Shown here piece by piece: positions 3,709 to 11,207 of a DNA stretch of 64,000 bases. Under the pieces are notes generated by a model. That model worked only from the letters and a program-made list of their open reading frames with translations. It had not been told where the DNA came from and did no database searches. How positions within the stretch are numbered: position 1 is the first letter of the stretch; each line of letters starts with the position of its first letter. The translations under genes were made by a program, and so were the position numbers. Origin of the DNA: Thermoflexus hugenholtzii JAD2. Its GTDB lineage: Bacteria; Chloroflexota; Chloroflexia; Chloroflexales; Roseiflexaceae. The stretch covers positions 62,001 to 126,000 of the forward strand of contig CAMCVW010000004.1 in NCBI GenBank assembly GCA_945881915.1, in the 5' to 3' direction.

Positions 3709-3850
3709 CTGGTGCTCCTCTTCGGTGAAAAACGTACGGCTATTGTATCATGATGGCAGTGCTCTGTATCCCTCTTGCTGCGCCGAGAATGCCTGCGACA
3801 TTCGGTGCAACACAACCGCATAATATGACCGAACATAGAAGGAGCATGCA

Positions 3851-4396
3851 ATGCAGACGGGACTGCTTGGTGTAGGGACAATCGCCCCTCCCTGGATTTT
3901 GCACGACAACGCTGGTGCTGGCTATTCGCTTCCGGTTTTGCAGGCGCATCGCCCGGCAATTCTGACGTTTCTGCGCCACTTTGGCTGACCATTCTGCCGT
4001 CAGGCGCTTGCTCGTGTAGCAAGAATTGTCGCTGAGAGTTCATTCCCTGTCGTGGGTATTGCAATTGGTACTGGTACCCCGGCTGAAGCTGCCGAAGCAG
4101 GCGCACGCTATGCCAATGGGGTGACCTGCCTTGCAGACACGGACCAATCAGTGTACCGTTTGTATGCGGTGGGACGGGCAACAATCGGTGCATTTACCCA
4201 CCTCAGTGTTCTCCGTGAAGGCGTCACCGCGCTTCGGGATGGGTACGGGATGGGGAGTTCTCAGGGCGATGTCATGCAGATGCCGGCTACATTTGTGCTC
4301 GATGCCAATGGCGTCGTACAACTGGCAGCGTATGCTTCCACCATCGCTGAATTCCCGCCCGAAAAAGACATCCGTCAGGCGCTCCTCCGAACCTAA
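3851..4396 (+). CDS. Peroxiredoxin-like (AhpC/TSA-type) protein, probable selenoprotein with in-frame TGA
   Basis: Read through one in-frame TGA (3986-3988, codon 46), this is a 181-residue thioredoxin-fold protein. Both sides of the TGA are in the same frame and both are family-like. Before it comes PAILTFLRHFG and after it PFCRQALARV. In relatives the motif is typically FLRxFGCPFCR, so the TGA sits exactly at the first cysteine of a redox CxxC and gives U46-P-F-C49. The C-terminal part carries the cis-Pro region MPATFVLDANG. The ATG at 3851 has an AAGGAG site 7 nt upstream. A SECIS-like hairpin follows the TGA (separate entry). Expected role: thiol- or selenol-dependent reduction of peroxides or disulfides in the cytosol. 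Alternatives are a TGC-to-TGA nonsense mutation or a sequencing error; the otherwise intact frame and the hairpin argue against these. A conventional annotation would show only a truncated ORF from GTG 4052. Confidence 0.78.
4007..4023 (+). promoter_or_regulatory. SECIS-like hairpin downstream of the in-frame TGA
   Basis: CTTGCT (4007-4012) and AGCAAG (4018-4023) form a perfect 6-bp stem with a 5-nt loop, CGTGT. The loop begins 24 nt after the TGA. Known bacterial SECIS elements have a small apical loop roughly 16-37 nt after the UGA and a G among the first two loop bases; here the second loop base is G. The stem could extend through GCG/CGC (4004-4006 with 4030-4032) across a bulge. SelB binding is inferred from this geometry only. 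Confidence 0.68.
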
Positions 4397-4722: not shown

Positions 4723-6852
4723 ATGAGTGCAAAGATGCATCGCCGCAAATTTTTGCGGTACTCTGCGATGGGCGCTGCAAGCGCAGCAATCGTCGCCTGT
4801 GGTGGCGCTGCCACCGCTGAGCCGACTGTCGCTCCCGAAGGCGAAGCCCCGGCCCCCGCTGTACCCGCCGTTACGACGAAGTACAAAGAGTCCCCTAAAT
4901 TGGCCGAAATGGTGACTGCTGGCAAACTGCCAAACGTCGACGAGCGCCTGCCAAAAAGCCCATACACCCCACCTCACGCATGGCTGACCACCGGTCAGTA
5001 CGGCGGCAAGATGCGCAAAGCATATGCTAATACGTGGGGTATTGCTGGCTTCCAGCATGAATCCATGTACGGTCATTCAATCCTGCGGTACCTCAAGGAC
5101 GGTCTGGCAATCGGACCTGGCTTGGCGGAGAGCTGGGAAGCAAGTGCCGACGCAACCAAATGGACGTTCAAGTTCCGTGAGGGCTTGAAGTGGTCAGATG
5201 GTCAGCCTTGGACCGTCAATGACATCATGTACTGGTGGGAAGACATGGTCGGTGGCAACGGTAAAGAAGCCGGCTTCCCAGCAGGTTTGAAGCCAGTCGA
5301 AGGCCCACCGGACGAGGCTCGTTCGGGTAAGGGTACGTTGGTCATGATCAATAAGGTCGACGACTTCACCATGGAAATGGTGTTTGACGCCCCAGCACCG
5401 TTGACCGCAGACCGCATTGCAATGTGGACCAATGCAGGCATCGGACCACGCTGGCACGCCCCACGTCATTACATGGAGCAGTTCAGCCCAATCAAGAACC
5501 CAGACAAAATCAAGGACTGGGAAGAGCATTCCAAGAAAATCGGCTTCAACAATCCAGACTGCCCACGTATGTCGGGTTGGTACATGACCGTGTACGAAGA
5601 CGGTGTCCGCACCGTTTGGGAGCGGAACCCATACTACTGGTGTGTTGATGCAGAAGGCAATCAGTTGCCATACATCGATACTGTTGAAATTGCCTACGTC
5701 AAGGACAAAGAAACCGAGAAGTTGGCCTACCTGAACGGTCAGGTCGACCATGCTCACTTCCACACCCAGACGCTGGGCGACATCAAGGATTTCAAGGACG
5801 GCGCCGATAAGAGCAAGTTGAATGCCATGTTCTGGGACTCGGGTTCGGGTACTGGCTCCATGTACTTCTTCAACTTTGACTATACCGACGCTGCACTCCG
5901 TGCTGCATTCCGCGATGCAAAGTTCCGCCAAGCCTTGTCACTGGCCTACGACCGCGCAGACGTCCAGAAGGCTGTCTACTTCGGTTTGGGCGAGTTGAGC
6001 AACGGTACGATGTCCCCCAAGGCCATCGAATACAACCTCAACGACGAAGCAAAAGCAGCATACGCATCGTGGCGCGACAGCTACAAGTCATATGACGTCG
6101 CGAAAGCAGAGTCGATCCTCGACGAAGCCGGCTACAAGAAGGGCGCAGACGGCAAGCGCACACTTCCAGACGGCAGCCCGATGAAGATTCTCGTCACCTA
6201 CCCCGCCGACGAGAGCCCGAACGGCGAGCACATGCAGAAGAACGAGCGCTTGATCAAGAACTGGTTAGCAATCGGTATCGATGCAACGTTGACCGGCATT
6301 CCAAACGAAGGCTACGACGAAAAATGGCGTGCCGGCGAAATCATGATGAAGACGGCATGGGAAGTCGGCGACGGCCCCAACCACTTGGTATATCCACAGT
6401 GGGTCATTCCCATCGAAGGCGATCGTTGGGCACCTGTCCATGGCAAGGGCTACGACGTCCGTGGTACCGCAACCGAGGGCGAAGAGCTCTCTATGGACCC
6501 ATGGAAGCGTTCACCAGCTCGTATCATGCCAACCGACAAAGACTTCGATGCAAACATTGGCAAACTCTATGAAATCTACGACAAGACCAAGGTCGAAGCA
6601 GATGTCATGAAGCGCCATGCCATGGTCTGGGACATGATCAAGGTACACGTCGAGCACGGTCCGTACTTCTCCGGTACGATCACCAATCAACCACGTATCA
6701 TCTTGGCACATACCGACATGAAGAACGTTCCAACCCGCGAAGACTTGCTCAAAGAGGGTTTGGGTGGCTTTGTGAATCCATGGATTATCCCAGCTCCTGC
6801 AACCTACGACCCAGAGACCTGGTTCTGGGGCACCCCAGCCGACCACGCCTAA
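4723..6852 (+). CDS. ABC importer substrate-binding lipoprotein (family 5, peptide/oligosaccharide type)
   Basis: A 709-residue extracytoplasmic binding protein that captures the substrate for the importer encoded downstream. The N-terminus combines a twin-arginine motif (RRKFLRYSA, residues 7-15) with a lipobox ending at Cys26 (AAIVACGG), followed by an Ala/Pro-rich spacer. This suggests Tat export followed by lipid anchoring. The family 5 hallmark GLAESWEASADATKWTFKFR, with WSDGQPWTVNDI just after it, lies near residues 135-170. The protein is longer than typical DppA (about 540 residues), which is common for proteins of this family that bind sugars or large ligands. The substrate cannot be told from sequence; the sugar-metabolism genes nearby favour an oligosaccharide (inference). 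The ATG has a strong AAGGAGG site. It is first in a five-gene operon and is followed by a 30-bp palindrome that may raise its transcript level over the permeases. Confidence 0.93.
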   Translation: MSAKMHRRKFLRYSAMGAASAAIVACGGAATAEPTVAPEGEAPAPAVPAVTTKYKESPKLAEMVTAGKLPNVDERLPKSPYTPPHAWLTTGQYGGKMRKAYANTWGIAGFQHESMYGHSILRYLKDGLAIGPGLAESWEASADATKWTFKFREGLKWSDGQPWTVNDIMYWWEDMVGGNGKEAGFPAGLKPVEGPPDEARSGKGTLVMINKVDDFTMEMVFDAPAPLTADRIAMWTNAGIGPRWHAPRHYMEQFSPIKNPDKIKDWEEHSKKIGFNNPDCPRMSGWYMTVYEDGVRTVWERNPYYWCVDAEGNQLPYIDTVEIAYVKDKETEKLAYLNGQVDHAHFHTQTLGDIKDFKDGADKSKLNAMFWDSGSGTGSMYFFNFDYTDAALRAAFRDAKFRQALSLAYDRADVQKAVYFGLGELSNGTMSPKAIEYNLNDEAKAAYASWRDSYKSYDVAKAESILDEAGYKKGADGKRTLPDGSPMKILVTYPADESPNGEHMQKNERLIKNWLAIGIDATLTGIPNEGYDEKWRAGEIMMKTAWEVGDGPNHLVYPQWVIPIEGDRWAPVHGKGYDVRGTATEGEELSMDPWKRSPARIMPTDKDFDANIGKLYEIYDKTKVEADVMKRHAMVWDMIKVHVEHGPYFSGTITNQPRIILAHTDMKNVPTREDLLKEGLGGFVNPWIIPAPATYDPETWFWGTPADHA

Positions 6853-6876
6853 TCCACACGTGGCGTTGCCACATTC

Positions 6877-6906
6877 GTCCATGGGTGAGCATGCTCACCC
6901 ATGGAC
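6877..6906 (+). repeat. Perfect 30-bp palindrome between binding-protein and permease genes
   Basis: The left arm GTCCATGGGTGAGCA is followed directly by its exact reverse complement, giving a 15-bp arm with no unpaired base in DNA and a strong RNA hairpin. There is no T-run afterwards, so it is unlikely to be a simple terminator. At this position, between the binding-protein and permease genes of importer operons, such hairpins usually protect the upstream mRNA from 3' exonucleases. Confidence 0.85.
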
Positions 6907-6978
6907 TCCCCCATCTCACATTCCCCTGTTCGACCATCTTTTGTGGCAGTGTTGCCGAACCCTGAGTGGGAGCGATGT

Positions 6979-7962
6979 ATGCTGAACTTCATTGCCCGAC
7001 GGCTCATCAATATGGTGGTGCTGCTCGTAGTGGTATCTTTCGTTGGATTTTTTATCATCCAGTTGCCGCCGGGCTCTATTTTGGACGTTCAATTGACCAA
7101 AATGCGGGCAATGGGCGGTGACATTTCGCGGGACCAAATGAAGGCCATGGCAGAGCGATATGGCATAAACCAACCATTTAGTACCCGGTACTACAAATGG
7201 ATTAGTCGTTCTGTGCAGGGTGACTTCGGCACATCATTCGCAACCGATCAATCCGTGGGTGACCGCATCTGGGGTCGCTTATCGATTTCGCTCGGCTTGT
7301 CTCTCTTTGCATTGTTGTTTACGTGGCTGGTGTCGATACCAATTGGTGTCTACTCAGCAACACACAGATATACGGTACCCGACTATATCGTGACCCTTTT
7401 TCAGTTCATCGGACTCGCGATTCCGGGCTTTTTGCTCGCTCTGGTCATGTTGATTGTGGCGACCCGCTATTTCAATCAGCAGGTGGGCGGGCTCTACTCC
7501 TCGGAGTACCAAGATGCACCGATGTCGCTGGCAAAATTACGAAACTTGATTGAGCATGTCTGGATTGCGGTTTTCGTGCTTGCAATCGGTGCGACTGCTG
7601 GACTGACGCGGGTGATGCGTGCCAATCTGTTGGACGTACTCAATATGCAGTACATCCAGACCGCCCGGGCGAAGGGGTTGGACGAAGCAATCGTCATCTG
7701 GAAGCATGCAGTTCGCAACGCAATCCACCCGCTCGTCGCCGCCCTTGGCACCTTACTGCCTGCGCTGGTGGTCGGCGAAACACTGGTCGCACAGGTGCTC
7801 AGTCTCCCCACGATTGGCCCCATGTACCTCGATGCCCTGCGGCAACAAGACATGTACCTCGCGGGTACCATTCTGGTGTTGTTGTCTGCACTACTCCTCA
7901 TCGGTAATTTGGTATCAGACCTCTTGCTGGCGTGGGTTGACCCGCGTGTGCGTTTGGAATAG
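6979..7962 (+). CDS. ABC importer permease, DppB/OppB family
   Basis: A 327-residue inner-membrane permease, first of the two that form the translocation channel. It begins MLNFIARRLINMVV with an N-terminal membrane helix. This is followed by the family segment in which a periplasmic loop (KMRAMGGDISRDQMKAM and on) precedes the transport core. The cytoplasmic coupling motif is seen at NMQYIQTARAKGLDEAIVIW with HAVRNAIHPLV. I chose the ATG at 6979 (GGGAG upstream); an in-frame ATG at 6901 would add 26 non-family residues and overlap the palindrome. The protein ends with the usual LVSDLLLAWVDPRVR tail of DppB-type permeases. Confidence 0.93.
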   Translation: MLNFIARRLINMVVLLVVVSFVGFFIIQLPPGSILDVQLTKMRAMGGDISRDQMKAMAERYGINQPFSTRYYKWISRSVQGDFGTSFATDQSVGDRIWGRLSISLGLSLFALLFTWLVSIPIGVYSATHRYTVPDYIVTLFQFIGLAIPGFLLALVMLIVATRYFNQQVGGLYSSEYQDAPMSLAKLRNLIEHVWIAVFVLAIGATAGLTRVMRANLLDVLNMQYIQTARAKGLDEAIVIWKHAVRNAIHPLVAALGTLLPALVVGETLVAQVLSLPTIGPMYLDALRQQDMYLAGTILVLLSALLLIGNLVSDLLLAWVDPRVRLE

Positions 7963-7974
7963 AAAGGTTTTGTC

Positions 7975-9084
7975 ATGGCAGTAGACGCAACTAAGCTACC
8001 CAACACAGCACCAGCTGTCGAAGATGTCGGTACGATTCCGCAGTGGAAACTGATGGTACGCCGCTTCCGCAAAAGCAAACTCTCAGTCGCCGGTCTGATT
8101 ATGTTGATAGTCTTGTATACGCTGATGTTTCTTTCGGACTTTATTGCGCCGTATCAACACAATCGCATTGATTCCAACTACGCATGGGCACCTCCTTCTC
8201 AACTCGGTTTTGCCAACGGGAAAGTCGTCACGTATGCCCTCAAGCAGACCCTCGACGAAGTGCGCTTCGAATGGATCTACGCACCAGACCTCGAAAATCC
8301 AATCCCCGTAGAATTTTTCGTGCAAGGATACGAGTACCGACTGCTCGGCTTCATCCCTTCCAAATTGCACCTCTTTGGCGTACCGGATGGTTCGCAGATC
8401 AACCTGATAGGCGCAGACAAAGACGGCAAAGACGTTTTTTCGCGATTGCTCAAGGGAAGCCAAATTTCGCTGACGCTGGGTTTTGTCGGTGTGTTGATAT
8501 CGGTTATTATTGGATCAATTGTCGGTACCGCCTCTGGGTACTTCGGTGGAGCTATCGACAATATCATTCAGCGCTTGATTGAATTGTTGCGGTCATTCCC
8601 CGACATTCCATTGTTTCTCGGGCTCGCAGCAGCGTTACCAATGGGTGTACCGGTGGAGGTGCGCTTCTTCCTCATCACTATCATCATCGCAATGATTGGC
8701 TGGACGGGTTTGGCTCGTGAAGTGCGTGCCAAAGTCATGGCCTTCCGTGCCAGCGATTACACTTCAGCTGCCATCGCAGCCGGTGCGTCGCATTGGCACG
8801 TGATTACTCGCCACCTCATCCCCAACGCGATGAGCCATATCATCGTGGTGGGAACACTGGCGATTCCGGGCGCAATTGGGTCCGAGACGGCGTTGAGCTT
8901 CCTCGGGTTGGGGATTTTGCCACCAGCCGTGTCGTGGGGCGTCATGCTTCGTGACGCACAGACCATCGAGGCAATTACAAACTACCCCTGGATGCTTTTG
9001 CCGGTCGGTGTGCTCATCATCGCAGTGCTGAGCTTCTATCTTTTGGGCGATGGCGTGCGCGATGCCGTTGACCCGTACGCGTAG
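7975..9084 (+). CDS. ABC importer permease, DppC/OppC family
   Basis: Second channel subunit, 369 residues, 12 bp after the first permease. The N-terminus has the DppC family pattern WKLMVRRFRKSKLSVAGLIM with a membrane helix. It is followed by an extracytoplasmic insert of about 100 residues that is longer than in E. coli DppC. The sequence GADKDGKDVFSRLLKGSQIS marks the start of the membrane core. The coupling loop is SDYTSAAIAAGASHWHVITR followed by HLIPNAMSHI. The C-terminus LLGDGVRDAVDPYA matches the family end. It acts with the DppB-like subunit and the two ATPases that follow. Confidence 0.93.
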   Translation: MAVDATKLPNTAPAVEDVGTIPQWKLMVRRFRKSKLSVAGLIMLIVLYTLMFLSDFIAPYQHNRIDSNYAWAPPSQLGFANGKVVTYALKQTLDEVRFEWIYAPDLENPIPVEFFVQGYEYRLLGFIPSKLHLFGVPDGSQINLIGADKDGKDVFSRLLKGSQISLTLGFVGVLISVIIGSIVGTASGYFGGAIDNIIQRLIELLRSFPDIPLFLGLAAALPMGVPVEVRFFLITIIIAMIGWTGLAREVRAKVMAFRASDYTSAAIAAGASHWHVITRHLIPNAMSHIIVVGTLAIPGAIGSETALSFLGLGILPPAVSWGVMLRDAQTIEAITNYPWMLLPVGVLIIAVLSFYLLGDGVRDAVDPYA

Positions 9085-9094
9085 GAGGTAGTCG

Positions 9095-10141
9095 ATGACG
9101 ACTGAACAAATGGCACCGAATAGCTCAATTAATCTGACGAGCCACGACGATGTCGTGCGTGTAGAAGATCTCAAAGTCAGCTTTTACACCCAGCTAGGTG
9201 TGGTTCGTGCGCTCAACGGGGTCAGTTTTAACATCCCACGGGGACGCGTGTTGGGCATTGTGGGTGAATCGGGCTGCGGCAAGAGCATCACTGGTCTGTC
9301 CATCATGCAGTTGGTGGTCGGCGCAGGGCGCACCGAAGCAGGGCGTATCATGTTCCGCGAATATGCTGGCCAGGAACCTCCGGTCAACATCCTCGACTAC
9401 GGCAAAAACAGTCCCGAGATGCGCAAGATTCGTGGCAACAATATATCGATGATCTTCCAAGAGCCGATGTCTTCACTCAATCCGTGTTACACCATTGGCA
9501 ACCAGATTGAAGAAGCGATTTTGCTCCACCAGACCAATGACAAAAGCGAAGCATCAAAGCGTGCTATCGAAGTGTTGAACAAGGTTGGTATGCCCAATCC
9601 TGCACGTATTGCGGCTTCATACCCACACGAACTTTCGGGTGGGATGCGGCAACGGGCAATGATTGCAATGGCGTTGTCATGTAATCCGACACTCCTCATC
9701 GCCGACGAGCCCACGACCGCACTCGATGTAACCACCGAAGCACAAATCCTTGATTTGATGCGCGGATTACAGAGCGAGATAGGCACCTCTATCATGTTCA
9801 TTACCCATAACATGGGCGTCGTGGCACAGATGTGCGATGAAGTCGCAGTGATGTATATGGGCCGCGTCGTCGAACGGGCAACGGTCGACGACATCTTCTA
9901 TGAACCACGACATCCGTATACGATTTCGCTGCTGCAATCAATCCCACGTTTGGGACGGAGGAGTGGGAAGCTTGCATCCATTGAAGGAAGCGTGCCGGAT
10001 CCGTATTCAACCACTCCTGGTTGTTCGTTCCATCCGCGCTGTCCCGTGGCAATCAAAGGATTGTGCGATACCATCGAGCCCCAAGAAACCATCGTCGATG
10101 CAGCGAAGGGACATACCGTCCGCTGTCATCTGAATTCGTGA
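9095..10141 (+). CDS. ABC importer ATPase, DppD/OppD family
   Basis: A 348-residue ATPase. Walker A GESGCGKS lies near residues 57-64, with Q-loop MIFQEPMSSLNP, signature LSGGMRQR and Walker B LLIADEPTTALD. The C-terminal oligopeptide-type domain carries the cysteine segment PGCSFHPRCPVAIKGLCD, which in related DppD/DppF proteins binds an Fe-S cluster. The ribosome site AGGAGG lies directly before the ATG. It pairs with the next gene to form the importer's ATPase heterodimer. Confidence 0.94.
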   Translation: MTTEQMAPNSSINLTSHDDVVRVEDLKVSFYTQLGVVRALNGVSFNIPRGRVLGIVGESGCGKSITGLSIMQLVVGAGRTEAGRIMFREYAGQEPPVNILDYGKNSPEMRKIRGNNISMIFQEPMSSLNPCYTIGNQIEEAILLHQTNDKSEASKRAIEVLNKVGMPNPARIAASYPHELSGGMRQRAMIAMALSCNPTLLIADEPTTALDVTTEAQILDLMRGLQSEIGTSIMFITHNMGVVAQMCDEVAVMYMGRVVERATVDDIFYEPRHPYTISLLQSIPRLGRRSGKLASIEGSVPDPYSTTPGCSFHPRCPVAIKGLCDTIEPQETIVDAAKGHTVRCHLNS

Positions 10142-10148
10142 GGTGACC

Positions 10149-11207
10149 ATGACCACCGATGATATGTTGCTTGAGGTACGTGGCCTCAAAAAGCACTTTC
10201 CTATTCGAACCGGTTTGATGCGTCGCGTCACTGGGATGGTCAAAGCCGTCGACGGCATTAATTTTCATATCCACAAAGGTGAAACACTCGGGTTGGTGGG
10301 CGAATCAGGGTGCGGCAAGAGTACTGCTGGCCGCGCAATTCTGCGTCTGCATGAACCAACTGCCGGCGAAATCATCTTCAACGATCCGGTACTGGGCAAA
10401 ATCGACGTTACCCAGGCTGACCGCGAAACGATGATGAAAATTCGTCCCAACATGCAGATTATCTTCCAAGATCCATTTACATCACTCAACCCACGCCTGA
10501 CCGTGGGACAAATTGTGGGTGAACCGCTCGAAATCCAGCATCGTGCCTCAGGTTCTGAATTGTCTGATCGTGTCGCAGAATTGCTCAACGAGGTCGGTAT
10601 TCGCCCCGAAAACATGACCCGCTATCCACACGCTTTTTCGGGCGGGCAACGCCAACGTATCGGCATTGCCCGTGCATTGGCACTCAATCCGAGTTTGATT
10701 ATTTGTGATGAGCCTGTTTCTGCCCTCGACGTATCGATTCAAGCACAGGTCTTGAATTTGCTCGATGAGCTCCAAGCAAAATACGGAATGGCGTATCTGT
10801 TTATTGGGCACGACCTGAGCGTCATTGAGCACATTTCGGACCGGGTCGCAGTCATGTATGTCGGCTATATCGTCGAAATGGCCAAGACAGACAAATTGTA
10901 CTTCTCGCCCAAACATCCATATACCGAAGCCCTCCTGAACGCTATTCCAAAGGCAGATCCACGGTTGCGCACGCGACCAGAACGTTTGCTAGGTGACGTG
11001 CCTTCGCCGGCAAACCCGCCCAGTGGGTGCTACTTCCATCCGCGCTGTCGGTATGCCAAAGAAATCTGCAGCGTGGAACGTCCCCCGTTGACAGACATCG
11101 GTGACGAGCATTACGTCGCATGTCATTTTGCTCGAGAGTTATCTCTGACCGGTGTCCAGGCATTGAGTGATATCAAGCTCGAAATGCCGGCAGCCAAGAA
11201 CGTCTAG
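10149..11207 (+). CDS. ABC importer ATPase, DppF/OppF family
   Basis: A 352-residue ATPase and last gene of the importer operon. Walker A GESGCGKS is near residues 51-58, Q-loop IIFQDPFTSLNP, signature FSGGQRQR, Walker B LIICDEPVSALD. The C-terminal cysteine segment SGCYFHPRCRYAKEICS matches the OppF family. The start at ATG 10149 is preferred because GAGGTG sits just upstream; an in-frame GTG at 10143 is the alternative. The gap to the previous stop is only 7 bp. A strong terminator follows. Confidence 0.94.
   Translation: MTTDDMLLEVRGLKKHFPIRTGLMRRVTGMVKAVDGINFHIHKGETLGLVGESGCGKSTAGRAILRLHEPTAGEIIFNDPVLGKIDVTQADRETMMKIRPNMQIIFQDPFTSLNPRLTVGQIVGEPLEIQHRASGSELSDRVAELLNEVGIRPENMTRYPHAFSGGQRQRIGIARALALNPSLIICDEPVSALDVSIQAQVLNLLDELQAKYGMAYLFIGHDLSVIEHISDRVAVMYVGYIVEMAKTDKLYFSPKHPYTEALLNAIPKADPRLRTRPERLLGDVPSPANPPSGCYFHPRCRYAKEICSVERPPLTDIGDEHYVACHFARELSLTGVQALSDIKLEMPAAKNV

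Follow-up and report, generated by a model that had tools for sequence, protein, structure and literature searches.

In the window, by which we mean the whole 64,000-nt stretch of DNA analysed, a peroxiredoxin-like gene is interrupted by a single in-frame TGA. The question raised by this locus is whether the codon is read as selenocysteine (Sec), or whether the gene is broken, misread, decoded with another amino acid or split in two. We conclude that 3851-4396 very probably encodes a functional selenoprotein of the SelL-related / PRXL2-like branch of the peroxiredoxin superfamily, and that its product is probably cytosolic. This reading is supported by computation on frame selection across the UGA, the Sec machinery, a conserved SECIS element, the fold and the placement of the UxxC motif. 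From the sequence we infer that Sec is inserted at residue 46. Ribosomes would start at 3851, SelB bound to the hairpin at 4007-4023 would bring Sec-tRNA(UCA) to the UGA at 3986, Sec would enter at position 46 and translation would run on to 4396.

Gene structure and reading frame

Re-reading of the window located the ATG at 3851-3853, the TAA at 4394-4396 and codon 46, a TGA, at 3986-3988. The features of the locus are as follows.

3838..3850, + strand: Shine-Dalgarno-like site AGAAGGAG and spacer before the start codon, recognized by sequence
3851..4396, + strand: full gene of the putative SelL-related, peroxiredoxin-like selenoprotein, 181 residues and TAA
3986..3988, + strand: UGA codon predicted to be read as selenocysteine, U46, position 1 of the UxxC redox motif
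3995..3997, + strand: TGC codon, C49, presumed resolving cysteine of UxxC
4007..4023, + strand: predicted bacterial SECIS hairpin with a 6-bp stem and the 5-nt loop CGUGU, supported by conservation and covariation
4052..4396, + strand: spurious 114-aa ORF with a GTG start, the product listed by a Sec-blind gene finder

The TGA was the sole in-frame stop within 3851-4396. When it was translated as a residue, one protein was obtained (MQTGLLGV...LRHFGUPFCRQ...QALLRT, 181 residues), in which U occupied the first position of the CxxC motif (RHFG-U-PFC). The preliminary description had placed the TGA on the first Cys of CxxC, had found both flanks in frame over 181 residues and had noted a ribosome site before the ATG, and all three statements held. 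The Shine-Dalgarno-like site lies directly upstream of 3851, and GGAG-type sites were also present upstream of the start in the orthologues L036, L037 and L038. Automatic annotation had been expected to reduce the gene to a 114-residue fragment; the GTG ORF at 4052-4396 does exist and is what a Sec-blind finder would list.

Selenocysteine machinery of the genome

The machinery for Sec was located by family searches in the genome of the window (3.09 Mb in 63 contigs, 98.6% complete). selA (498 bits), selB (338.7 bits, or 363.5 with the C-terminal part) and selD (347 bits) were present. A tRNA-Sec with anticodon TCA scored 59.1 bits against a gathering score of 47, and the call of ARAGORN was tRNA-SeC too. 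The genome therefore contains selA, selB, selC and selD, the set that is the criterion for a bacterial selenoprotein and that had been proposed as the check on this gene.

The selD gene (L065, G000:C2:83900-85900) had one in-frame TGA of its own, at SSAGU-AAKMG, the known Sec position of SelD, and Sec-blind annotation would truncate this gene. SelD is listed among selenoproteins (PMC13188914).

SECIS hairpin behind the UGA

The stem strands CTTGCT (4007-4012) and AGCAAG (4018-4023) enclose the loop CGTGT (4013-4017). The hairpin starts at the 19th nucleotide after the TGA and its loop starts 25 nt after it, with 24 nt between; the 5-nt loop has G at position 2, followed by U. This geometry was the same as first described. 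According to the bSECIS model as outlined in PMC13188914, the loop measures 3-9 nt, the stem 4-16 bp and the distance from the UGA 16-37 nt, with G within the first two loop positions and often then G or U. The hairpin at 4007-4023 agreed with this outline in each respect.

Folding energy alone was rejected as SECIS evidence. The window's hairpin taken by itself had -4.9 kcal/mol, a value reached by 16% of synonymous shuffles (p = 0.16), and when the 60 nt that begin at the TGA were folded, another structure had the lowest energy. The significance of the hairpin comes from conservation and covariation. The 18 nt at 4007-4024, CTTGCTCGTGTAGCAAGA, were identical in all five congeners (L035-L039), whose proteins were 64-69% identical to that of the window. 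Within the 534 nt compared, the second-longest invariant run measured 7 nt, and over the gene as a whole shared residues had identical codons in only 54% of pairs. When these five Sec genes were joined by five more, all six pairs were kept in the ten genes (100% of cells, none broken) and three of the six were changed on both sides. The covariation score was reached by 0 of 500 shuffles, and slid versions of the hairpin fell short too.

Twelve other Sec loci carried a hairpin whose loop, AGUU, was one base more distant from the UGA; in this hairpin 90.5% of cells were paired and 4 pairs were changed on both sides. SECIS-like hairpins were stronger behind TGA than behind Cys codons at the site (Mann-Whitney p = 3e-6), and a comparable hairpin was mostly absent from Cys homologues. 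The proposed check of the hairpin as a bacterial SECIS was thus passed in its fit to the published model, its conservation and its covariation.

UGA is reassigned to Trp or Gly in some bacteria, and leaky UGA occurs, so that this codon might be reassigned here, or decoded by a near-cognate tRNA with Trp or some other amino acid, and no selenium be involved. We consider this very improbable here. Homologues without TGA have Cys at the site, the genome has a tRNA-Sec with a UCA anticodon and the complete sel set, its selD has TGA where SelD is known to carry Sec, and a conserved hairpin stands at SECIS distance. Several homologues also end at an ordinary TGA stop.

Conservation of the TGA among homologues

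The codon aligned to position 46 was read at every fetched locus from a tblastn search with the protein; many of these sequences were metagenome assemblies. TGA was found in 25 loci including that of the window (24 further loci; among the 25, L020 and L037 were the same sequence), and TGC or TGT in the others. The in-frame UGA is therefore aligned with Cys of homologues and is kept in relatives, as the criterion for a selenoprotein has it; as had been anticipated, TGC or TGT stood at this place in more distant homologues. Each of the 25 loci had a single in-frame TGA only. They came from nine species of the window's genus, another genus of its family, other Chloroflexia, Nitrospiraceae and Desulfobacterales/Desulfobacteraceae. 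The protein of L020 was also the same as that of the same-genus genome G077. Such a distribution of TGA at the homologous codon is more than chance.

Eight further species of the window's genus had TGA at the same codon and the gene at the same chromosomal place beside ilvD. In congeners the gene was flanked by ilvD and a gene for a solute-binding protein (SBP_bac_5), which indicates that these genes are orthologues in place. Compared with L036, differences behind the TGA numbered 24, 16 and 81 at codon positions 1, 2 and 3. The predominance of third positions indicates that the sequence following the "stop" is translated and subject to purifying selection.

The possibility that an ordinary CxxC peroxiredoxin-like gene had acquired a nonsense mutation was weighed against these data, since a young pseudogene viewed alone would look just like this, a frame open except for one stop. 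The identical TGA recurred in the eight other congeneric species and at other fetched loci, spanning species with 37-69% protein identity, and the pattern downstream of it was purifying. Further nonsense mutations in close relatives, which had been named as grounds for doubt, were looked for; no second in-frame stop was seen in the closest orthologues and the TGA was kept. A pseudogene is thus refuted, and we give it next to no credence. An error by which a true TGC or TGT was read as TGA is just as implausible: the genome, assembled in 63 contigs, is possibly metagenomic, but the same codon was seen in 24 further loci from assemblies of many different species. The split of the locus into a 45-residue leader peptide and a 114-residue protein from the GTG at 4052 has the existence of that ORF in its favour and is no more credible, as inspection of the sequence before 4052 detected no Shine-Dalgarno-like site, the GTG was replaced by GTC in 2 of 4 orthologues, and the stretch from the UGA to 4052 is conserved in sequence and contains the active-site helix. 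All four alternatives were therefore rejected, and the gene is treated as one selenoprotein gene.

selA exceeded its cut-off in 18 of the 20 TGA-form genomes, compared with 5 of the 10 Cys-form genomes from the fetched loci (Fisher p = 0.026), a weak test in which related genomes are counted as independent and one "Cys" genome had a weak TGA-bearing match. selA was not found in one genome with the TGA form (G054, locus L054), which is 86% complete; the gene may lie in a missing part of the assembly, or the Sec trait may have been lost recently.

Gene neighbourhood

In the window, ilvD lies upstream of the selenoprotein gene on the other strand, and an ordinary oligopeptide ABC transporter cluster (solute-binding protein, permeases and ATPases) occupies 4723-11207 downstream. 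Some congeners had a short ORF (...LQPPRYNSFGDAIGADL...) directly 3' of the selenoprotein gene (L041:2026-2412, + strand; L042:1108-1494, - strand; also L040:1103-1522, - strand), and it could be co-transcribed with that gene there. This ORF was not seen in the window.

Protein family, fold and predicted catalysis

The protein matched Pfam AhpC-TSA (PF00578) with 38.3 bits against a gathering cut-off of 26, and Redoxin marginally above cut-off. The PRXL2-type AhpC-TSA_2 (PF13911) scored 20.5 bits, below its cut-off of 27. The best and only significant NCBIfam match was NF040769, "SelL-related redox protein" (E 1.7e-24), in which residues 18-177 were aligned to positions 9-172 of the 173 in the profile. 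Homology was thus near full-length and included the CxxC/UxxC motif. The window protein scored 86.4 bits and its orthologue L036 85.6 bits, below the curated cut-off of 120. All 38 aligned relatives matched this model, and the Sec-encoding relatives L021, L022 and L044 passed its cut-off, as did L052 and L056. By these scores the window protein is a diverged relative of NF040769, in a subclade outside the model, and not a formal member.

The motif reads G-U-P-F-C. It lacks the Thr three residues ahead that marks the typical peroxiredoxin motif (TxxC/TxxU); U opens the motif and C stands at its fourth position, the arrangement of thioredoxin-like UxxC. Position 49 was Cys in all relatives except one. 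This exception, the Sec-encoding L059, reads U-P-Y-A, with GCC (Ala) at the codon aligned to C49 instead of a resolving Cys, which suggests that its branch may use a mechanism without a local resolving Cys.

An AlphaFold model (pLDDT 95.8) had the peroxiredoxin fold, with U46 immediately before the active-site helix 47-62. A PDB search with the single protein gave weak matches only, and an alignment profile was needed. The nearest solved structure was human PRXL2B (9us9, 9usa; profile E 5.8e-16), with Z 19.5 and an rmsd of 2.1 over 155 residues in the fold comparison. In the profile alignment U46 fell on C44 and C49 on C47 of PRXL2B, both of which are replaced in entry 9usa. On the ResA variant structure 3c71 (CPHC motif), U46 fell on the first Cys of CxxC. 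This placement on PRXL2B and ResA points to Sec46 as the most likely nucleophile and to Cys49 as the residue that most likely resolves it.

The catalytic scheme as a whole is somewhat favoured. Sec46 would attack as nucleophile and Cys49 would resolve it as an intramolecular selenylsulfide. We infer that thioredoxin or a similar reductant would then reduce the selenylsulfide, and that the reaction would act on an organic or lipid peroxide, or a disulfide, as the probable substrate. The genome contained seven other AhpC-TSA matches, none with an internal stop, which makes the Sec form one of several peroxiredoxin-like proteins.

Evolution of the Sec and Cys forms

The ten Sec genes from the window's family grouped together with good support in a 40-member tree. 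The tree needed four Sec/Cys changes, at least three of them forced by well-supported branches, and a single Sec origin in the family was not supported. It is possible, though we hold this tentatively, that the gene belongs to a distinct, uncurated Chloroflexia selenoprotein subfamily, in a wider family that exchanged Sec and Cys at least three times and uses two SECIS types, one with 5-nt CGUGU or AGUUU-like loops in the window's family and one elsewhere whose 4-nt AGUU loop stands one base more distant from the UGA. If true, this would offer a natural series in which to follow how SECIS elements originate and move inside coding sequence.

A 2006 survey gave only three selenoproteins for the phylum (PMC1794560). 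The present gene adds a well-supported one to Chloroflexia, in a gene that Sec-blind annotation would give as a fragment. Its 18-nt SECIS, frozen while the codons around it drift, cleanly illustrates an RNA signal inside a coding sequence, and the pairing of Sec and Cys forms within one family permits tests of selenium's contribution. No new mechanism is opened by the finding.

Comparison with known selenoproteins

The literature search returned no description of the family in Roseiflexaceae or Chloroflexia, and the available portions of PMC1088965, PMC2398784 and PMC13188914 did not name it in Chloroflexia.

PRXL2B, the human prostamide-prostaglandin F synthase, has Cys at both places where the window protein has U46 and C49, and is 19% identical to it. 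Its lipid endoperoxide substrate cannot be assumed for the window protein. Selenoprotein L of aquatic animals, the name-giving relative of NF040769, is likened to the window protein through the family name. It carries a UxxU diselenide motif, whereas the window protein has UxxC and a single Sec. Selenoprotein L has been termed a Prx-like protein (PMC2398784).

Among the nearest known kinds are also the Prx-like UxxC selenoproteins (PF00578). In 2005 a Prx-like selenoprotein from the Sargasso Sea was described whose motif is a thioredoxin-like UxxC where Sec-peroxiredoxins have TxxU (PMC1088965). Global Ocean Sampling added several subfamilies in 2008 (Prx-like 1-3, UxxC; PMC2398784), and a prokaryotic selenoprotein list of 2026 has the entry "Prx-like thiol:disulfide oxidoreductase, UxxC, UxxU" (PMC13188914). 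As these sources outline them, such families (e.g. WP_010940744.1) share with the window protein an AhpC-TSA domain, UxxC, a bacterial SECIS and Cys homologues, a likeness by description only. Of the "probable new selenoprotein" of the preliminary description, the selenoprotein is therefore upheld and "new" is narrowed: the subclade does score below the curated family cut-off, but UxxC peroxiredoxin-like selenoproteins were already known. The window gene is a new, uncurated and diverged representative of a kind of selenoprotein known since 2005.
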